IMG/VR virus record: IMGVR_UViG_3300031673_000301
Coordinates: 1 to 32,337 of that record
Source: a virus
Direction: 5' to 3' (one strand)
DNA length: 32,337 nucleotides
In this document: positions 13,884 to 30,416 of the stretch, piece by piece
How the letters are laid out: every line of letters begins with the position of its first letter
Numbering within the stretch: position 1 is the first letter of the stretch
Notes under the pieces: model-generated
The model's input: only the letters and a program-made list of their open reading frames with translations
Told to the model about the DNA's origin: nothing
Database searches by the model: none
Program-made: the position numbers and the translations under genes

Positions 13884-14264
13884 ATGACAAGCGGGCCACT
13901 TGAAAGCATAAATATAAATACTCGACGTTTTCCTGTTGACGGTGAGATAAACGCAGTATTAAATCTTGATGGTTATACTAATGAAGTAAAACCAAACGGA
14001 CAACCTGGAGAAAGTAGAATAATAAAATCAAGACGTTCCGGAAAAATTGGAGCCATACCGTTAGTTATTGATAGTTCACGTGGTGATGTGGAGTTTTTAC
14101 AAGAAATCATGAATTCTAATGATTTTGTAGATTTTTATGCTACCGGTGTAGATGGTATTACATGGGAAGGAAATGTACAGATTGTGGAATCTCCCGAATT
14201 GGCAACAAAAGATGGAACTATGGAAATTGTTGTAATGGGATTTATAAAAAGGCAAGGTACATAA
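13884..14264 (+). CDS. Tail tube protein, Mu gpM family
   Basis: 126 aa. It stacks as hexamers to form the inner tube that delivers DNA. The sequence is beta-rich and starts with LESININTRRFPVDGEINAVLNLDGYTNEVKPNG, then ITWEGNVQIVESPELATKDGTMEIVVMGF, characteristic of the Mu-type tube. The ribosome site is AGGAGG and the stop overlaps the chaperone ATG as TAATG. Confidence 0.9.
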   Translation: MTSGPLESININTRRFPVDGEINAVLNLDGYTNEVKPNGQPGESRIIKSRRSGKIGAIPLVIDSSRGDVEFLQEIMNSNDFVDFYATGVDGITWEGNVQIVESPELATKDGTMEIVVMGFIKRQGT

Positions 14265-14683
14265 TGCAATACAAAATTGATGAACAGCTGGCAGAAGAAG
14301 AGTTTGTTAAAATATGTGAGGATTGGGAAATCGATATTGATGAAAGTAACATGGATTCAGAAGAAAAAATCGATTTTAAAAGTGTAAAAGTAAAAGTTAT
14401 AAAAGCAATCAGGCTTGGAAGGCTTGTGTATAATTCAGATGGAACTATCATTTATACTTTAAGTAAGCATTCTATAGATTTTGTAGGTACTGAATTGACT
14501 ATAAAAGTTCCCGATGGTGTTGCTTATACCGACATGGATCAGTTTAAAAAAGACAAAGATATGCACAAAACATTTACGATACTGTCTTACATGATAGGTA
14601 AACCATTACCAGTTATAAATAAACTTGATGGAAGGGATCTTAAACCGCTTCTCGCGCTGGCATCGCTTTTTTTAGCCGATTAG
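14264..14683 (+). CDS. Tail assembly chaperone, short product (Mu gp41-like, gpG equivalent)
   Basis: 139 aa, acidic. It accompanies tape measure folding during tail assembly. The order of features is acidic helices (EQLAEEEFVKICEDWEIDIDE), a central region with VIKAIRLGRLVYNSDGTIIYTL and DMDQFKKDKDMHKTFTILSYMIG, then LPVINKLDGRDLKPLLALASLFLAD. The ATG overlaps the tube stop (TAATG). Near the 3' end the T7A run forms a canonical -1 slippery heptamer, so a longer fusion product is also expected. It stands between tube and tape measure, the standard position. Confidence 0.85.
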   Translation: MQYKIDEQLAEEEFVKICEDWEIDIDESNMDSEEKIDFKSVKVKVIKAIRLGRLVYNSDGTIIYTLSKHSIDFVGTELTIKVPDGVAYTDMDQFKKDKDMHKTFTILSYMIGKPLPVINKLDGRDLKPLLALASLFLAD

Positions 14684-14886
14684 CTTCCACGGTTGCAGCT
14701 GGGGGCATAGAAAAAGTAATATATGGGATTGAGGGTGTTATAATTCAGTTAGTGCAAATACTTATGGATTATTCATCATTACCGGATTATAGGACTATGA
14801 AACTACATCAGATACGATTTTTTTATAAACCACTTATTCCAGGTTTGAAAAAATGTCAGAAGGATATGAGGAAAAATGGCGAGTAG
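14264..14886 (+). CDS. Tail assembly chaperone, -1 frameshift fusion (gpGT-like)
   Basis: If ribosomes slip -1 on T TTT TTA (14668-14674), the product is 207 aa: the first 137 residues of the short chaperone plus 70 more. The -1 frame is open from 14674 to the TAG at 14884-14886 and has no start codon of its own with a ribosome site. It contains PDYRTMKLHQIRFFYKPLIPGLKK, of the type seen in the downstream halves of Mu- and P2-like chaperones. The end overlaps the tape measure start. In lambda, P2 and Mu relatives both forms are needed at a set ratio. The slip is inferred; the site and open frame are seen directly. Confidence 0.8.
14668..14706 (+). promoter_or_regulatory. -1 programmed frameshift site with possible stem-loop
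   Basis: The heptamer T TTT TTA (14668-14674) is in register with zero-frame codons TTT and TTA, matching X XXY YYZ. Eight nt downstream, GCTTCC (14683-14688) can pair with GGGGGC (14701-14706), using two G-U pairs and a 12-nt loop. That is the usual distance for a stimulatory structure. Confidence 0.75.
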
Positions 14887-16591
14887 ATTTTCCTTAGAAG
14901 CGGTTTTTCGTGCCGTAGATAAATTCTCCTCTCCCATGAAAAAAATTACAAGTTCAACGAATAAATTTACAAGTTCATTAAAAAAAGATTTTGCCAAGGC
15001 ACAGAGACAAGTTGCTAATTTCGGACAGAATCTTAAAAGACATGCATGGATTGGAGCAACCGCAGTAATAGCTGGAATAGCCTATATGGTCAAAGAAGGC
15101 GTTCAATTAGCAAGTGATTTGTATGAAGTTCAAAATGTTGTCGATACTACATTTAGGGAATCGTCAAAAGTTATTGATAAATGGTCTCAAAGTGCCATAA
15201 GTGATTTTGGATTATCTGAATTACAGGCTAAAAAGTTTACAGGTTCATTAGGGGCAGCATTAAAATCCTCTGGAATTACAGGTGATGAAATTGTTAATTT
15301 ATCAACTGATCTTGTAGGTTTATCCGGTGATTTTGCATCATTTTACAATTTGCCTGTAGAAGAGGCTTTTGAAAAAATAAGATCTGGTATTATGGGACAA
15401 TCAAAACCATTACGTGATTTAGGTATAAATATGAGTGTTGCTAATTTAGAAGCTTATGCACTTTCAAAGGGAATGCAAAAACAATTTAAGGATATGAGTC
15501 AAGGTGAGCAAACTATGTTAAGATACAATTATTTGATGAGTGTATCAAATGACGCGCAAGGTGATTTTGCAAAAACATTATCTACTAGTTTAGCAAATCA
15601 AACAAGAGTATTACAAACAAAGTTTTCTCAAAAATTGGCAGGAGCTATGCAAAAACTAATACCAATACTTATAAAGGTAATGGAAGGTTTTAATAATTTT
15701 CTTGACACATTAGATACCGACGCTATCGCAAATTTTGTAGTGATTGTATTTAATGGGATAAAAAAAGGTATCGATATATTTATTTCATTCATAAAGTTTT
15801 TAAAACCATTTGCACCAATTATTTTTGGTATAGTCGCTGCTTTTGCAGCATATAAAGCGATTATGATTTTAGCTGCTATCGCACAAGGTATTTTAAACAT
15901 AGTAATGTTAGCTAATCCTATAGGATTGTTAATCATAGCTATAGGTGTTTTAATAGGATTAACAATCATAATAGTTCAGAATTGGGATAAAATTACAGGT
16001 GCATTAAAAAAAGGTTGGAATGCAATTAAAAAAACTGGGAAAGCATTATGGGACAATCTTATAAAAGGACTTCAAAAAGCAGGTGATTGGATATCTAAAA
16101 ACTTTGATAAGTTTTCTTTATTACTAGGGCCGATTGGTTTTCTTGTTTCAATCGTTCAAGAACTTGGAAAAAGTTGGGATGATATAACTAATCTTTTTAA
16201 AAAAGGTGATATTTTAGGTGGTATACTTGCAATAGGACGCGCTATGCTTTCCGGATTACTTGCACCAATTCAAGGATTTTTGGAATTAGTATCAAATATT
16301 CCAGGGCTTGGAGATATAGCCAAGGGTGCCGCCGAAAAAATTAGACAGATACGGGAAGGCTTGACAGAGTTTGAAATTAAAAAACCTGAAGGTGAAGGAA
16401 AAGAAGTATCAGTTGCACCTATTACCCAGGGAGAAAGATCAGCTACAATAATGAGTGAAGAAAAAACAACCGGTGAGTTGATAATAAAAGATGAAACTGG
16501 AAGAGCTTTATTAAGTAAGGGGAAAGGAAATAAAAAACCAGGATATAAAATCAGACTTCAAACTTCATCATCTTTTACAGGTGCTAGCTAA
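14876..16591 (+). CDS. Tail tape measure protein
   Basis: 571 aa. It sets tail length and is ejected with DNA. The N-terminal coiled region (KKITSSTNKFTSSLKKDFAKAQRQVANFGQNLKRH) is followed by a TP901-type tape measure core: VQLASDLYEVQNVVDTTF, ELQAKKFTGSLGAALKSSGI and GQSKPLRDLGINMSVANLEAYALSKG. A long hydrophobic centre (about residues 310-370) could insert in membrane. Using the usual rule of about 0.15 nm per residue, the tail would be near 85 nm, short for a myovirus. The start lies inside the frameshifted chaperone frame. The ribosome site (GGATATGAGG) is modest. Confidence 0.92.
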   Translation: MASRFSLEAVFRAVDKFSSPMKKITSSTNKFTSSLKKDFAKAQRQVANFGQNLKRHAWIGATAVIAGIAYMVKEGVQLASDLYEVQNVVDTTFRESSKVIDKWSQSAISDFGLSELQAKKFTGSLGAALKSSGITGDEIVNLSTDLVGLSGDFASFYNLPVEEAFEKIRSGIMGQSKPLRDLGINMSVANLEAYALSKGMQKQFKDMSQGEQTMLRYNYLMSVSNDAQGDFAKTLSTSLANQTRVLQTKFSQKLAGAMQKLIPILIKVMEGFNNFLDTLDTDAIANFVVIVFNGIKKGIDIFISFIKFLKPFAPIIFGIVAAFAAYKAIMILAAIAQGILNIVMLANPIGLLIIAIGVLIGLTIIIVQNWDKITGALKKGWNAIKKTGKALWDNLIKGLQKAGDWISKNFDKFSLLLGPIGFLVSIVQELGKSWDDITNLFKKGDILGGILAIGRAMLSGLLAPIQGFLELVSNIPGLGDIAKGAAEKIRQIREGLTEFEIKKPEGEGKEVSVAPITQGERSATIMSEEKTTGELIIKDETGRALLSKGKGNKKPGYKIRLQTSSSFTGAS

Positions 16592-23959: not shown

Positions 23960-24258
23960 TTATCAATAATTATTTCATCATTTTCAGATTCAAAAAAAGT
24001 CATAAATTGACTATTTTTTAGTATAACAGTCATTACCCATTGAAAAAGAAAATCTTCATCGAATATTTTTTCGGCTTTTATATTTAATATTTTACCAGAA
24101 TACACATTTCTAGATAATTTTGAATAAATTAGAATTTGATCTCCAATTTTATATTTGAATTCTTGTAATATTTTATTTTTTGTTTTTTCTATTAATTTAT
24201 CATAATCGTTTTCAGCTTTATTATAGATTTTATTATAATTGTCTTCTATATTTATCAT
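23956..24258 (-). CDS. Small protein with predicted SH3-like core
   Basis: 100 aa, not recognised. An N-terminal Lys/Asp-rich helix (about 1-35) is followed by strands (KYKIGDQILIYSKLSRNVYSGKILNIKAEKI) suggesting a small barrel, and an acidic tail. It converges with the tail operon, with stops overlapping, and its ATG overlaps the stop of the 234-aa gene upstream (ATGA). The ribosome site is AAGGATATT. Confidence 0.65.
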   Translation of the reverse strand: MINIEDNYNKIYNKAENDYDKLIEKTKNKILQEFKYKIGDQILIYSKLSRNVYSGKILNIKAEKIFDEDFLFQWVMTVILKNSQFMTFFESENDEIIIDN

Positions 24259-24959
24259 ATAATATCCTTCTGTCTTAATAGTTTTTTCATTTGGCCGTTA
24301 TAAATGTTTTGTGCATCCTTGACCGGTTTATCTATTGAAGGTTCAAGGGACTTTTTTTGTTTTATGAAAACTGTTTTTTGAGATATATTGTAAATATGTT
24401 TTTTTCTAAATCTGATTTTATTTTTATTTTTTGCAAATGATGTTACTTGAAAAATATTATCTGAATACTTAAAATAATATTTATTCGTAAATGCTACATA
24501 CGCCCTGGCTACATTTTGAGCTTTCCTACTTCTAAAGTTTTTTGTGAACTTTCCTTTTACTGTTTTTCTTCTTATTGTTCGCAAATAATGAGCTTTTGAT
24601 ACAACCCTTTTTTTTGAACCTCCCCTTGCTTCCGGTTGAGGTATAGCAAGGTGAGAACCTCGTTTTGATGTTCTTCTTCCGGACTCTTCATGCAATCTTA
24701 AATAATCAGCTTTTTCTGTTGCACCGACTTTTGTTTCCATAGTTGAAATGTCTAATGATTCTGTTTTTTCATATCTAATTTGTCTTACTGTAAAAGTATT
24801 TCGTAAAACAAAAGTATCCTGAACTTTTCTGATATAGTTTTTTCTTGAGATTGCAGCTATTATATTTAATGTATTTTTTGCTGCAATATTTGAAGCTTTA
24901 TTTAAATCGACAAAACCTCGGTTTATTTTTTCAACATCTATGTCAAGTCTAATTTCCAT
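24255..24959 (-). CDS. Putative virion/tail-completion protein (minor tail Z / HK97 gp10-like pattern) on the minus strand
   Basis: 234 aa, strongly basic. The layout is an N-terminal helix (LNKASNIAAKNTLNIIAAISRKNYI) and RNTFTVRQIRYEKT, then a beta stretch VGATEKADYLRLHEESGRR. SHLAIPQPEARGG and a basic C-terminal region follow. The helix, R-T-x-R-x-I, lHE-GG and hlAIP-ar sequence resembles phage tail-completion proteins of the gpZ or gp10 type. Those are normally in the late operon, whereas this one is transcribed against it. It is flanked by coupled small genes (TAATG and ATGA overlaps). The assignment is by eye only. Confidence 0.55.
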   Translation of the reverse strand: MEIRLDIDVEKINRGFVDLNKASNIAAKNTLNIIAAISRKNYIRKVQDTFVLRNTFTVRQIRYEKTESLDISTMETKVGATEKADYLRLHEESGRRTSKRGSHLAIPQPEARGGSKKRVVSKAHYLRTIRRKTVKGKFTKNFRSRKAQNVARAYVAFTNKYYFKYSDNIFQVTSFAKNKNKIRFRKKHIYNISQKTVFIKQKKSLEPSIDKPVKDAQNIYNGQMKKLLRQKDII

Positions 24960-25060
24960 TAGTGCACATCACATTCTTTTTTTAATTTTGCTAATAGAAT
25001 TATCCAAACTATGGTACTTACTACACAACCTATTATAAAACCTATAAAAAATAACATCAT
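24959..25060 (-). CDS. Single-TM mini-protein (33 aa)
   Basis: 33 aa, read directly. An almost entirely hydrophobic N-terminal helix (about residues 3-24, including GFIIGCVVSTIVWIILLA) ends in a short basic/Cys tail (KLKKECDVH). AAAGGAG lies about 8 nt before a double ATG, and the stop overlaps the start of the 234-aa gene (TAATG), so it is probably translated. It could be a small membrane effector or holin-like peptide; the function is unknown. Confidence 0.6.
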   Translation of the reverse strand: MMLFFIGFIIGCVVSTIVWIILLAKLKKECDVH

Positions 25061-25128
25061 AAAAAACTCCTTTATAAAAGACAGCCTACTCACTTTATGC
25101 TTTCGGCTGCTTTTGCTTATTTATACAC

Positions 25129-25174
25129 TGTGAAATATATTATTATTTATAAATTTATATTAGTCCATTTCACA
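25129..25174. repeat. Inverted repeat with AT-rich spacer
   Basis: TGTGAAAT (25129-25136) and ATTTCACA (25167-25174) are perfect 8-bp arms separated by 30 bp of nearly pure A/T, which contains the palindrome TATAAATTTATA. It lies upstream of the 33-aa gene and its right arm covers the ATG of a two-codon minigene. A pair of regulator half-sites is the simplest reading. Confidence 0.5.
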
Positions 25175-25182
25175 CTCTCCTT
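25160..25182 (-). other. Two-codon minigene with a perfect ribosome site
   Basis: On the minus strand AAGGAG (25177-25182) is followed 8 nt later by ATG GAC TAA (25160-25168). A GTG start in the same stretch would give only 8 codons. The ribosome site has no longer frame to serve. It may be a leader or drop-off minigene like lambda bar, or a remnant of a lost gene. The region from here to 25061 shows no other gene. Confidence 0.35.
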
Positions 25183-25205
25183 TCTATATTTTTGTTTGTT
25201 CGGCT

Positions 25206-25222
25206 ATAATCACTATGATTAT
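25206..25222. repeat. Operator-like palindrome
   Basis: ATAATCA (25206-25212) and TGATTAT (25216-25222) are perfect 7-bp arms with a 3-bp centre, a typical size for a dimeric repressor site. It lies between the RecT gene end and the minigene, near a weak minus-strand TTGAAT box. The function is inferred. Confidence 0.45.
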
Positions 25223-25248
25223 TCCTTATTCAAGTCTACTATTACTAC

Positions 25249-25268
25249 ATAGGCAACGCCTATTTTTT
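25249..25268 (+). terminator. Intrinsic terminator, plus orientation
   Basis: ATAGGC (25249-25254), loop AAC, GCCTAT (25258-25263), then a T run to 25268. The U-tract follows the stem only when read rightward. It would stop late transcripts that pass the end of the tail operon before they run antisense through the RecT operon. The stem is only 6 bp, so efficiency may be moderate. Confidence 0.6.
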
Positions 25269-25275
25269 AACTATA

Positions 25276-26196
25276 TCAGAAAAGTTCAGGTTCGTCAAGT
25301 TTTTCTTTCTCATCCGGTTTTTCCTCATCCGGTTTTTCTTTTTTTTCTTCTTCTTCAATTGGATCTTGTTTACTCAAAGCAGTTTCAATATCTTCTATGA
25401 CTGATTTGTCTTTTTCATTTTCAGACTCATCATCATAAATAGAAGCTGCCAATAACTCCCTGGCAGTTTCATATTTATCACAAAAGTGACGAATAGAGGC
25501 TTGCAGGGCCATTTCTTCTGGCCATTTGTCCCATGGTTTATCGTCGTAGGTTGTTTTTGAACATTTTTTCCACTGGTTTATTTTTAATAAAGAAAAAAAA
25601 TCTACTTCAAGTTGACTATTCATTTTTCTACACTGTACCCATACTCCGATAAACTTTCCCTTATCTTCTGCTATGCACACATTATGTATAACTTCTCCAT
25701 TTCCTTTATTAACTGAACACTGATCTTTTTCGTAGACAGTACCCCATCTAAGATCAAGAAAAATAGGTTGTTTTCCACCACATAGTAAGGCATAATATCC
25801 ACGATCACGGATGGAAAATCTAATTTCTGTAACCCAGATGTCCTTTCCTTTTCCATCTTTCTTTTTTGTGTTTCTTCCCTGGGGTATGAGATAGGCATGT
25901 TTTCCACCTATTTCTAACCCGGTGGAAACTGCTTTTTCTACTGCACCGATTATGGAAAGTTTTCCTTCGGTGGATTGAAAACAATCAGATAGTTCTTTAT
26001 CTTTTGCAATTGTGATGATTGTACTTTCCAGAAACTTATCTTGTTTTTCTTTTTCCCATGAAAGAAACTCATCTCCGGCCGAGACAAGTATTTTTTCTTT
26101 CAAGGCGAGTACTCCTTTTTTTATGCTGTCTTGTTTCTGGATCATGGATACTACCGGTACATATTCTTCCGGTAAGTTTTCTTTATTTGCTTCCAT
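25276..26196 (-). CDS. recT: RecT-family single-strand annealing protein
   Basis: 306 aa. It anneals complementary single strands produced by the partner exonuclease, giving RecA-independent recombination. RecT features are the N-terminal SWEKEKQDKFLESTIITIAKDKELSDC and GAVEKAVSTGLEIGGKHAYLIPQGRN. The core sequence has IRFSIRDRGYYAL and DDKPWDKWPEEMALQASIRHFCDKYE, the last being the conserved helical region before the tail. The C-terminal 45 residues are a low-complexity acidic tail (repeated EEKPDEKE), common in annealing proteins that contact SSB or exonuclease. AAAGGAG precedes the ATG. It is in the same operon as a YqaJ-type exonuclease three genes upstream. Confidence 0.92.
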   Translation of the reverse strand: MEANKENLPEEYVPVVSMIQKQDSIKKGVLALKEKILVSAGDEFLSWEKEKQDKFLESTIITIAKDKELSDCFQSTEGKLSIIGAVEKAVSTGLEIGGKHAYLIPQGRNTKKKDGKGKDIWVTEIRFSIRDRGYYALLCGGKQPIFLDLRWGTVYEKDQCSVNKGNGEVIHNVCIAEDKGKFIGVWVQCRKMNSQLEVDFFSLLKINQWKKCSKTTYDDKPWDKWPEEMALQASIRHFCDKYETARELLAASIYDDESENEKDKSVIEDIETALSKQDPIEEEEKKEKPDEEKPDEKEKLDEPELF

Positions 26197-26210
26197 TTGT
26201 TTCTCCTTTC

Positions 26211-26882
26211 TTAATCTCGATAATTTCCGTATGAAGTTTCGACGTATTCATAATCGTCAATTATTTTTACTTTGGCTGCATAGAGTTGGAATAAGAATGA
26301 ATCGAAACCGTACAATAGGGGTGTTTTTATTTTTTTAGCTTCACATTCGTCTATTTTAACATTCCATAACCCATCATTATTTATTGATAATTGATAGGTG
26401 CAAGAATATTTATTTGTATTAGATTCTTTGTCAAAATAATAATCAATATAGCCATCTGAAACATTAGATTCACTTCTTTGAAAAGTTATTTCCCCGGATT
26501 CTTCATGACGATCAACATCTTCAATAAATGCACTTATTATTTCAGATATTTTATATTCTGATTTTTCAAGTGGTTTAAAAAACTTTTTCAAGTTTTTTTC
26601 GATTTGTTCTTTTCCAGTGGATATAATAGTATTATTTATTATATCGGTTATCCAGGTTAAGACAAGCTGATTATAAGAGGGAAGGTCAAGTTTCATATTG
26701 CCAAGGGATAAGGCTTGTTTTACTTGTTTTTCTACCTCCTTTCCGAAATCTGAATATTTACTTATACAATCATATACTATTGATTCAATAGTTTTTTCAA
26801 GTTGTTTCCCGATTGTATTTTCTATGAATCCAGATTTTACAATTTCACCGAATTGTTGTTCAATAATTTTTTCAAGTTCCAT
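26211..26882 (-). CDS. Uncharacterised protein between RecT and the exonuclease
   Basis: 223 aa, not recognised. The N-terminal half (1-125) is helical and amphipathic (MELEKIIEQQFGEIVKSGFIENTIGKQLEKTIESIVYDCI). The C-terminal half is beta-rich with an acidic cluster (DVDRHEESGEITFQRSESN, then DGYIDYYFDKESN and CTYQLSINNDGLWNVKIDECEAKKI). There is no membrane segment or nuclease motif. Operon position suggests a role with the recombination proteins or in host interaction. AAGGAG precedes the ATG and the gap to recT is 14 nt. Confidence 0.7.
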   Translation of the reverse strand: MELEKIIEQQFGEIVKSGFIENTIGKQLEKTIESIVYDCISKYSDFGKEVEKQVKQALSLGNMKLDLPSYNQLVLTWITDIINNTIISTGKEQIEKNLKKFFKPLEKSEYKISEIISAFIEDVDRHEESGEITFQRSESNVSDGYIDYYFDKESNTNKYSCTYQLSINNDGLWNVKIDECEAKKIKTPLLYGFDSFLFQLYAAKVKIIDDYEYVETSYGNYRD

Positions 26883-26892
26883 GATTTTCTCC

Positions 26893-27078
26893 TTATTGTA
26901 TTATTCGACTTATTCCAACTTTACCGAGAGATTTAAAAAGTATTTTCTCGGTTTCTGGAATAGTTATGCAATTTTCAAAATGATCTTTTAATTTTCTTAT
27001 AAGTTCAATATAACCTGTTTTATAATTCCATTCTGAAGGTTCTTCATATTCAATTTCTAATTGTATTAGTATTTTCAT
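26893..27078 (-). CDS. Small uncharacterised protein (61 aa)
   Basis: 61 aa, with a mixed helix/strand pattern: MKILIQLEIEYEEPSEWNYKTGYIELIRKLKDHFENC then a basic end. No motif was found. It has a GAAAGGAAA ribosome site and an ATGA overlap with the 34-aa gene upstream. The strand-turn-helix order could be a small ferredoxin-like unit, but this is a guess. Confidence 0.6.
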   Translation of the reverse strand: MKILIQLEIEYEEPSEWNYKTGYIELIRKLKDHFENCITIPETEKILFKSLGKVGISRIIQ

Positions 27079-27179
27079 TTAGTTTTCCTTTCATATTTCC
27101 ATTCAACATTATTTTTTTCACATTCATCACCATATTCTTTTAAATTACAGGATACATAAGTAATTTTAATAACTATCAT
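27075..27179 (-). CDS. Mini-protein bridging exonuclease and next gene (34 aa)
   Basis: 34 aa, read directly (MIVIKITYVSCNLKEYGDECEKNNVEWKYERKTK). It overlaps the exonuclease stop with ATGA at its start and the 61-aa gene with ATGA at its end, so the three are translationally chained. It has two Cys and no recognised fold. Confidence 0.55.
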   Translation of the reverse strand: MIVIKITYVSCNLKEYGDECEKNNVEWKYERKTK

Positions 27180-28237
27180 TTTACATATCTCCTTGTGTAA
27201 GTTTTTATCAAGCCTTTTTCTTGTAGGATTTCAAATGCAACAGGTGCAAACTTTTCTATAGTGGATGGGTGAATTAAATTGTATTGATCTGTTGAAATTA
27301 CCTGTTGAAATACTTTTTTTCCAGTTTCTCCGTTATATAGAAATTTATTATCACACATAAGTAAACCGGCTGCATTATTTATATCATCGATACGCTTTTG
27401 ATATTTTTTTACTTTTGAAAGTAGTTTCTTTTTTTCTTTGCTCATTTCATCTGATATTAAAGCGCGTTCACCTGTAACATAGATAGCACGATCTTTGATT
27501 TCTGGAAATAGTTTTTTAATATCATCGTATTTTTCAGGTTTAGGGGGTTTGTCGTTTACACAGTACCATAAAAAAACGCTTGCTTTTTCAAGCAGTAAAG
27601 GCCACCACTTTTTTATGGCAGGTACTTTATAAACATAAAACTTATTATCGTCAATCAATAATAAAACGTATGTTAAGTTTACATTATAACACATCATTTG
27701 CCACTGTACTTGTAAAAGCACATCGGAAGGAACTCCATTTTCAGATAAATCGTCAAGGTCGAAGCCTTCTATTCCTTCACGTTTTACCCTAGCAAAATAT
27801 CCGCCTGTTTTTGCTTCGATAAGATAGGGATCTGATAGATATGTGTTTGCAACACAGTCAGCATGTGCAATTGCCCATGGAAATTGAGGGTGTCTGCATT
27901 CTGTATATGGTTCGAAAATAGTTTTTGATTTATAATTTTTTATTCTTATATGATCATGTCTGATATAATCAATTAAAAAATCTTTACCAACAGTATTATA
28001 TCCAAATCTTTCAGAAATAAATGTTGATAAAAGTAATGGTTCTAAACGATGTCCCCAGGTGGTAAAATCATTTCCTTTAAAAGATTCTACTTTTCCTGTT
28101 TTTTCTTCCCATAATTCATATTGTGATTTTTTGATTTTTGAGTTTTTTGTTTTTATTATCACAGGGATATCAGAGGAGCCTATAATTAGTTCACCTGGTT
28201 TTCTGACATCTGATTCATAAAATGTATATTGATTCAT
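27176..28237 (-). CDS. YqaJ-type 5'-3' exonuclease (lambda Exo fold)
   Basis: 353 aa, PD-(D/E)XK nuclease that resects double-strand ends for RecT. Active-site elements in order: GHRLEP with Glu66, AHADCVA with Asp127, LIEAKTG with Glu141 and Lys143, and VLLQVQWQMMCYN with Gln176/178/180 on the following helix. All catalytic positions are intact. The C-terminal third is helical (KEKKKLLSKVKKYQKRIDDINN). AAAGGAG precedes the ATG and its start overlaps the 89-aa gene upstream. Pairing with RecT makes an Exo/Bet-like recombination module. Confidence 0.92.
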   Translation of the reverse strand: MNQYTFYESDVRKPGELIIGSSDIPVIIKTKNSKIKKSQYELWEEKTGKVESFKGNDFTTWGHRLEPLLLSTFISERFGYNTVGKDFLIDYIRHDHIRIKNYKSKTIFEPYTECRHPQFPWAIAHADCVANTYLSDPYLIEAKTGGYFARVKREGIEGFDLDDLSENGVPSDVLLQVQWQMMCYNVNLTYVLLLIDDNKFYVYKVPAIKKWWPLLLEKASVFLWYCVNDKPPKPEKYDDIKKLFPEIKDRAIYVTGERALISDEMSKEKKKLLSKVKKYQKRIDDINNAAGLLMCDNKFLYNGETGKKVFQQVISTDQYNLIHPSTIEKFAPVAFEILQEKGLIKTYTRRYVK

Positions 28238-28484
28238 GATTTTTCTCCTTTCTCCTTCCAGAACGTTTTATTTTTTTATGTCCGTTATTGTTGTATTTTT
28301 TGTAAACGGAATCTATATCTTCAATACCGGCAATTCCAGCAATTATAAAACGATAATTACTATTAAAAAACATATGGGCTGTCCTTTCATAATTTTTTCC
28401 TTTTTTAGTTTTGATGTTTAGGTCGTTAATTGCCTGTATAACTATTGCTATTGCAATCAGTTTTATTTCACGATGACTATACAT
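28215..28484 (-). CDS. Small basic protein upstream of the exonuclease
   Basis: 89 aa, basic, with KKYNNNGHKKIKRSGRRKEK near the C-terminus. The N-terminal half is predicted helical, including IKLIAIAIVIQAINDLN and FFNSNYRFIIAGIAGIEDID, and no motif is recognised. Its end overlaps the exonuclease gene by 23 nt. AGGGAA lies 6 nt before the ATG. It may bind nucleic acid on charge grounds only. Confidence 0.6.
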   Translation of the reverse strand: MYSHREIKLIAIAIVIQAINDLNIKTKKGKNYERTAHMFFNSNYRFIIAGIAGIEDIDSVYKKYNNNGHKKIKRSGRRKEKNHESIYIL

Positions 28485-28492
28485 ATAATTCC

Positions 28493-28756
28493 CTATTTCA
28501 AAAATGGTATTATAAAATAACTTTTCTTCTTTTCAAGTAACTTTATCAATAGCATATCAAGTGTACCTCCTGGTAAAGTTTCACATAAAGCGTCAAATAG
28601 CTTTTGTGCTTCATCATTAAACATTTCATCATATTTTTTTAAATAATCTTTTACATTACTGTCAACTTTTTTAATTTCAGTATCTATGATTATTGTAATA
28701 TTTTTCATAGGTTCAGCCCCTACACCCTGTCCTTTATGAATATATACGGTTTTCAT
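28493..28756 (-). CDS. Small uncharacterised protein (87 aa)
   Basis: 87 aa. A beta start (MKTVYIHKGQGVGAEPMKNITIIIDTEIKK) is followed by helices (KDYLKKYDEMFNDEAQKLFDALCETLPGGTLDMLLIKLLEKKK). No family is recognised. It lies directly behind the helicase gene with AAAAGGAG before the ATG. Confidence 0.65.
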   Translation of the reverse strand: MKTVYIHKGQGVGAEPMKNITIIIDTEIKKVDSNVKDYLKKYDEMFNDEAQKLFDALCETLPGGTLDMLLIKLLEKKKSYFIIPFLK

Positions 28757-28768
28757 GGTTTACTCCTT

Positions 28769-30247
28769 TTATTTCCCTTCATGGTATCTTTTCCATACTA
28801 AATCTGTCCATTTTTGATCTTTGCCAATAAGTTTTGCAAGTTCACCAAATCTGTCAAGGCTTGTTAAATGACCATTTTTTACACGGTTTATTATTTCCTG
28901 TTCGCGATCTTTTATTTCAAACTCCTCTATATCGGTTATTTCTCCGAATCCTTGTTGAACAGGTGCGGGTAATATTTCCATTTGGGCGGGAACTTCCCTG
29001 ATTTGAGTTTCAAAAAATCCCTCTGATTTTAAATTTTCTCCACAATAGGGACATATGGGAGGCTTACCAGATAATAGACGATTGCAACCCGTACAAACAG
29101 TCATTTGTATGTTTTCTTCTTTTTCTTCTTTCTCTATACCTTCAAGCGTCCACGTGTGACGTTCAAGGGGGTGTCCATGTATTATGCTATTTCCACACTG
29201 GTCAATTATTATATTATATTTTTTTCCAGGATGTTTTCTTGCTGATCTTCCGATTTGCTGCAAATAGATTATTACAGATAATGATCGGCGCCTTAAAATA
29301 CATCCAGAAACAACTGGTATATCAACACCTTCATCTATAATTGCATAACTGCAAATGAAATTATATCTTCCATCCCCTAGACCATCAATATAATCTTTTC
29401 TTTCGGATTGATCCATTCCGCTATATACTGCGCCACCTTTCCATCCTGCCGCTCTCATGGCAATTGTTACTTCCATACAATCGTTTACAGAAGCACAAAA
29501 AATAATGCATGGTGCACCTAAAAAATATTTATTGTAAAGATCTATACAATTGTTTATTACAATATTATTGGAAAAGATTTTTTCTTCTTCATTTGGGTCG
29601 AAGTCACCTTTTTTCTTTTTTCCTTTAGCTTTTGCAAGTTGAAAAGTTAAGGGAGAATAGAAAACAACCGGTTCTGAAAGATAAACAGTACCTCCGGTGT
29701 ATTCAGGATTCAATAAATCAGCGTATTGAGGACCTGGTATTAAAGCAGTATATCCTGCTGATTTCATACCTATTCCATCGGTTCGGGCAGGTGTTGCAGT
29801 AAAACCTATAATGAGGCATTTCTTTTTATATCTGATAATCGTGTCAAATATTTTCATCCATGTCGGAGCTGTACCATGATGCGCTTCATCTGATATTATA
29901 ATATCCGGTAATAAATCATTTTTTGTGAGAAAATCAAGCCTGCCGGATAGAGTTTGAACCATAGCTATGTGAGTTAAGGAATCTATCATATAATTATTTC
30001 CCTGGATGATTCCAGGGTTAACGCCGAAAAGCACAAGCTTTTTTAGGGTTTGATCTGCTATTTCTTGCCTATGAACTAACCATAGGACGCGGTTTTTTTT
30101 ATCGTTTGCTTTTTTTGTTATGTCGGCGCCTATCACTGTTTTTCCGCATCCGGTTGAGCCTGTCCATATTATTTGTTTATGTCCTTTTTTACTGGCCATT
30201 AGTATATTTGTTTCGGCTTCTGTTTGGTATGGTCTAAGATTTATCAT
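28769..30247 (-). CDS. Superfamily 2 DEAH-type helicase with zinc ribbon
   Basis: 492 aa from ATG 30247. Motifs in order: Q-like RPYQTEA, Walker A GSTGCGKT (30-37), DEAH (120-123), TAT (150-152), and motif VI QQIGRSARKHPGK (from 330). A four-Cys zinc ribbon (Cys 385, 388, 399, 402) follows and the C-terminal tail is charged. It resembles phage helicases of the type III restriction/UvsW class that remodel branched DNA in replication and recombination. A GTG at 30265 would add six residues but lacks a ribosome site, whereas GAGGAA lies about 10 nt before ATG 30247. The start overlaps the upstream small gene. Overall length is normal for this phage group. Confidence 0.93.
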   Translation of the reverse strand: MINLRPYQTEAETNILMASKKGHKQIIWTGSTGCGKTVIGADITKKANDKKNRVLWLVHRQEIADQTLKKLVLFGVNPGIIQGNNYMIDSLTHIAMVQTLSGRLDFLTKNDLLPDIIISDEAHHGTAPTWMKIFDTIIRYKKKCLIIGFTATPARTDGIGMKSAGYTALIPGPQYADLLNPEYTGGTVYLSEPVVFYSPLTFQLAKAKGKKKKGDFDPNEEEKIFSNNIVINNCIDLYNKYFLGAPCIIFCASVNDCMEVTIAMRAAGWKGGAVYSGMDQSERKDYIDGLGDGRYNFICSYAIIDEGVDIPVVSGCILRRRSLSVIIYLQQIGRSARKHPGKKYNIIIDQCGNSIIHGHPLERHTWTLEGIEKEEKEENIQMTVCTGCNRLLSGKPPICPYCGENLKSEGFFETQIREVPAQMEILPAPVQQGFGEITDIEEFEIKDREQEIINRVKNGHLTSLDRFGELAKLIGKDQKWTDLVWKRYHEGK

Positions 30248-30416
30248 AAATTTTAATTTCCTCACATAAAACTTGAAAGATTGTATAATTTTTATTATAA
30301 TAACCCATTAATTTTTTATCGTTAATTTTGGATATTAGTCTTTCTCCATCTATTAGCCATAATTTTTTTGCATAAATAATTATTTTTTCTTTCCATTCTG
30401 AAAATGATTCTTTCAT
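30234..30416 (-). CDS. Small uncharacterised protein (60 aa)
   Basis: 60 aa, helical and charged (MKESFSEWKEKIIIYAKKLWLIDGERLISKINDKKLMGYY). The start was taken at ATG 30416, which overlaps the stop of the 62-aa gene (ATGA) and has GGAG 6 nt ahead; an upstream in-frame ATG is inside that site. Its end overlaps the helicase start. The function is unknown. Confidence 0.6.
   Translation of the reverse strand: MKESFSEWKEKIIIYAKKLWLIDGERLISKINDKKLMGYYNKNYTIFQVLCEEIKIYDKS

Follow-up and report, generated by a model that had tools for sequence, protein, structure and literature searches.

Does the tail chaperone gene of this virus yield one protein or two? A sequence-only reading of the genome had proposed that ribosomes shift into the −1 frame near the 3′ end of the gene, joining the chaperone to an extension that has no start codon of its own. 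The proposal is followed here in the window, i.e., the whole 32,337 nt stretch of DNA that was analysed, and across related loci. Judged from sequence, the gene very probably makes both a short form and a −1 frameshift fusion.

Tail Module and Identity of the Chaperone

The tail genes of the window are arranged in the order sheath (PHROG 165), tube, tail assembly chaperone (TAC), tape measure, DNA_circ_N protein (PF07157) and gp44-like hub. The tail tube gene (13884..14264, plus strand) matches PHROG 4699 (tail tube, E 1.2e-19), and the tape measure gene (14876..16591, plus strand) matches PHROG 1535 (tail length tape measure, E 1.4e-46). Placed between them, also on the plus strand, is a gene for a protein of 139 aa (14264..14683), the zero-frame product and short form of the TAC. 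It matches PHROG 4648 (E 3.5e-24), a family that carries an unknown-function label.

The sequence-only reading had proposed searching the 207 aa fusion against tail chaperone profiles. PF10109 (Phage_TAC_7) matches the chaperones of 15 of 75 diverse relatives (best 2.3e-7). That of Shewanella phage SppYZU01, with 29.2 bits, exceeds the curated cut-off of 25, whereas the window chaperone, at 12.1 bits (E 0.005), stays below it. An AF2 model of the chaperone, built from a 75-sequence alignment, has a pLDDT of 93.5. Foldseek placed three unnamed viral proteins at the top of its BFVD matches to this model, and also returned the ‘Tape measure chaperone’ of Burkholderia phage Mica (E 5e-3, probability 1.00) and a ‘Tail assembly chaperone’ (probability 1.00); the best PDB match, the HK97 tail assembly chaperone (2ob9), was not significant (E 0.78). 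Gene order, the Phage_TAC_7 matches in relatives and the structure matches agree with one another, and together make it very likely that the 139 aa product is a tail assembly chaperone, as the gene had been named at the outset.

Anatomy of the Junction

The 3′ end of the chaperone gene reads CTT TTT TTA GCC GAT TAG in the zero frame. The slippery heptamer T TTT TTA (14668..14674, plus strand) lies in exact zero-frame register, as previously described, its codons being TTT (14669–71) and TTA (14672–74). The zero-frame stop, TAG (14681..14683, plus strand), follows 6 nt past the heptamer, counted from 14674, and not the seven bases given before. The −1 frame is open over 14644–14886, and the extension (14674..14886, plus strand) comprises the predicted 70 codons (14674–14883) and a stop. 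This stop lies just inside the tape measure gene (ATG 14876), and the two reading frames share 11 nt. A fusion by way of the −1 frame would be 207 aa long, compared with 139 aa for the short product. In a scan of the ORFs of the window, this was the sole in-register X XXY YYZ at most 30 nt from a stop and with a −1 extension of at least 50 codons that was not simply an adjacent listed ORF.

Alternatively, the extension might be a small gene in its own right, its translation depending on re-initiation or coupling at the stop codon, and no fusion would be made. Aeromonas phage AeroV_348 and Oceanospirillum phage PD0307 are annotated in this way, with a GTG over the stop and the extension as its own gene, and 61 of 141 distinct junctions from related loci (described below) have some −1 frame ATG, GTG or TTG within −49 to +16. 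A nearby −1 start is nevertheless absent in most relatives. The −1 frame of the window contains no ATG, GTG or TTG upstream of GTG 14752, which lies 71 nt beyond the first base of the stop codon and within the conserved extension domain; the earlier claim that no start codon lies near the junction is therefore correct, and re-initiation is unlikely here. Re-initiation would also not need the T run and the CTT TTT codon pair, which are kept far beyond what codon usage would give. A separate gene is thus a very unlikely explanation. In a first sample, degenerate slip sites seemed to go together with an ATG 31 nt ahead of the stop that might serve for internal initiation (Fisher p 2e-4). This idea was dropped because the loci were largely one clade, and the association was absent from a second sample (12/36 canonical versus 2/8 T TTV).

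Conservation of the Frame Relation

If the gene is read by frameshifting, then its relatives might be expected to retain both the frame relation and the slip site. Viral contigs searched with the 139 aa chaperone as a single protein gave no matches; relatives were gathered by sheath alignment and search instead, giving a total of 177 loci with both halves and a conserved extension profile. The extension is in the −1 frame relative to the chaperone in 176 of these. The sole exception, L109 (5116–5800; a spirochaete MAG), has an indel that breaks the chaperone zero frame upstream of the junction, yet CTTTTTTTA is present and intact; the indel may reflect a sequencing error or a decaying prophage.

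A homopolymer at the junction invites the suspicion that the 139 aa frame and the extension are one gene split by an indel, through sequencing error or pseudogene formation, homopolymer runs being generally error-prone. The same frame relation is, however, found in nearly all loci, from many independent assemblies that include cultured phage genomes from several laboratories, and the probability of this explanation is negligible.

Among the 141 distinct junctions, T TTT TTN occurs in register, near the zero-frame stop, in 103, T TTT only in 20, T TTA or T TTC in 15, and no run in three. Loss of the T run or of the open −1 frame in relatives had been named beforehand as evidence that would refute frameshifting; in this comparison relatives retained both, and the proposal was not refuted. 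Where the slip site encodes Leu-Phe, the codons are CTT TTT in 67 of 77 cases, against 15.2 expected from each gene's own codon usage. Read codon by codon, all 12 annotated phage records have T TTT followed by TTA, TTG, TTC, ATT or ATG, and a thirteenth phage record (L014), which is unannotated, has T TTT TTC. An upstream Shine-Dalgarno stimulator was also sought, but SD-like words were present in only 21 of 97 junctions, which is not convincing.

The T run also raises the possibility that RNA polymerase, and not the ribosome, changes the frame. There are seven consecutive T in the window, and eight in six of the 141 junctions. The longest run is six T or fewer in 57 of the 141, which is short for polymerase slippage and makes it unlikely; moreover, the run is in codon register and the hairpin lies at ribosomal spacing. 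Transcriptional slippage is accordingly judged extremely improbable, and ribosomal frameshifting is the preferred reading.

Variation at the Slip Site

The canonical heptamer is absent from 38 of the 141 junctions, and any T run from three; not all relatives can therefore use exactly the same mechanism. One possible, though less probable, explanation is that some lineages have undergone erosion of the slip site (T TTT ATN, T TTT CTN, T TTA ATG and the three without a run) with the −1 extension left intact. The fusion would then be made by P-site-only slippage of a single tRNA, or the extension would be made separately. If true, frameshift sites ranging from the canonical form to complete absence would form a natural series within one orthologous gene.

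Three loci (L090, 5397–5430; L092, 5345–5378; and L116, 5281–5314) keep the −1 extension although neither a T run nor any other slippery sequence precedes the stop, and each has a −1 frame ATG 31 nt before the stop. In a clade of eight loci (L064, L075, L076, L080, L084, L091, L094 and L106), junctions end in CTT TTA ATG GAY TAG, the heptamer now being G CTT TTA ATG or similar, at which only TTA-to-TTT re-pairing is possible. In siblings of this clade (L150, L185 and L192), the corresponding site is still T TTT TTA/G.

Candidate Downstream Stem

A candidate stimulatory stem (14683..14706, plus strand) begins 8 nt past the heptamer, the spacing given in the sequence-only reading. It pairs 14683–14689 with 14700–14706 (GCUUCCA/UGGGGGC; 7 bp, including two G-U) around a 10 nt loop. 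Compared with synonymous-codon shuffles, which preserve the extension protein, the pairing score of the stem gave p of about 0.02, and its energy p of 0.32. In folding energy the downstream sequence was no better than shuffled sequences (z +0.96; folding of other spans gave z of −0.9 to +1.1).

The signal is clearer across the family. The 60 nt downstream of the junction fold more stably (mean z −1.19) than a control stretch upstream (mean z −0.28). In the synonymous-shuffle test 23 of 94 loci gave p < 0.05; when the test was moved 93 nt further downstream as a control, 8 of 94 did so. Loci with the same 6 nt stop spacing most commonly have a stem starting exactly 8 nt past the heptamer. The commonest stem register (i+j=39) is common to 11 loci of differing sequence, the window included, and the longest stems among relatives reach 15 bp (L026). 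Given the pairing score and the family signal on the one hand, and the non-significant energy on the other, the stem of the window is probably real but weak.

Extension Protein

The extension is conserved as a protein (75 sequences, mean column identity 36%), and its predicted model has a pLDDT of 89.7. When used alone in a tblastn search, the extension peptide matched the same locus position in other phages. Scans against Pfam, PHROGs and PDB profiles gave chance matches only, with no Pfam family above chance among the 75 members; the apparent pentatricopeptide matches come from just 13 residues, aligned to repeat proteins. A Foldseek search of the PDB with the extension model gave no significant match.

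Proposed Mechanism

Most ribosomes would terminate at TAG 14681–14683 and release the 139 aa chaperone. A minority would pause over T TTT TTA, aided by the hairpin 8 nt downstream, and the tRNAs on TTT and TTA would slip one base back onto TTT TTT, after which 70 further codons would be read to give the 207 aa fusion. Simultaneous slippage of both tRNAs is possible on T TTT TTA, while in relatives with T TTT ATN slippage in the P site alone would suffice. What the comparison establishes directly is the layout of the junction, the retention of frame relation, slip site and hairpin position, the gene order, and profile and structure matches of chaperone type; the occurrence of the slip, and its efficiency, are inferred. 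By analogy with lambda G/GT and P2 E/E+E′, the tape measure protein would be bound by the N-terminal portion that both products share, tail tube subunits would be brought in by the extension, and the efficiency of the slip would determine the ratio of short to long product. These suggested roles of the two products follow the lambda model (PMC5009743).

Comparison with Known Systems

Frameshifted tail chaperones are already known from lambda and P2, and the window is very probably a further case; the frameshift mechanism itself is textbook. Lambda has a long non-contractile tail and a slip sequence different from that of the window. Its short and long chaperones, gpG and gpGT, arise because ribosomes slip by −1 shortly before the first frame ends, and both act with the tape measure protein (PMC5009743). 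The likeness of the window to lambda lies in such a predicted pair of products.

Phage P2 has a contractile tail, the same gene position and a −1 shift on a T-rich site, and in its record E+E′ is annotated as a joined CDS running into the beginning of the T gene. The P2 proteins differ in length from those of the window, with a short form of 91 aa and an extension of 57 aa. PF10109, the broad family of the chaperone half, names E, 41 and 14 in its description (P2 E, Mu 41 and HK97 14). The tail gene order of Mu is nearly identical to that of the window (sheath, tube, chaperone, tape measure, DNA_circ_N protein and gp44-like hub), but the extension here is in the −1 frame, not in the Mu-type +1/−2 frame, Mu itself using −2 frameshifting (PMC5009743).

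In profile comparisons, no similarity was found to P2 E or P2 E′ for either half, nor to Mu gp41 or the Mu extension, all of these being single sequences and weak partners, and hhalign of the extension against P2 E′ and the Mu extension gave no usable alignment. The Mu/P2-type sequence character that had been attributed to the extension was thus not corroborated by these comparisons.

Annotated Relatives and Possible Host

Vibrio phage VP16T and the phages SFCi1, SppYZU01, CKB-S1, Scuro, AeroV_348, PD0307 and MAG7 carry a homologous chaperone and extension, in the same −1 relation and with a T run at the same place. Their sheaths are 39–46% identical to that of the window, and several have T TTT ATT (VP16T) or T TTT ATG in place of the canonical heptamer. 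Electron microscopy shows the tail of SFCi1 to be contractile (PMC5371815).

The expectation that such a fusion would go unannotated proved accurate, as none of the 12 annotated GenBank relatives lists a frameshift or joined product. The extension appears as a separate GTG-started gene in two of them, as a truncated ORF in three and as nothing in the rest. Within the open-licence PMC literature, frameshifting goes unmentioned in the MAG7 and PD0307 papers, although it may be described elsewhere. The present analysis corrects the annotation of a widespread, poorly annotated tail family, in which the extension is a conserved domain that is missing or mis-started in GenBank. The 141 distinct junctions are natural versions of one frameshift site, graded away from the canonical heptamer, and could be used to test the requirements of a bacterial −1 site.

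The window carries no tRNA. On the minus strand (24255–30265), opposite in direction to the structural module, are genes for RecT, a YqaJ-like nuclease and a DEAD/ResIII helicase. Among genome contigs, most sheath relatives come from Brachyspira, Treponema and other spirochaetes, with up to 53% identity, so a spirochaete host is possible for the virus. In one group of Vibrio phages, a block of small reverse-strand genes, one of them HTH-like, is inserted between the tube and chaperone genes and splits the tail operon (L010, 686–1810; L012, 1208–2337; and L013, 1303–2317).
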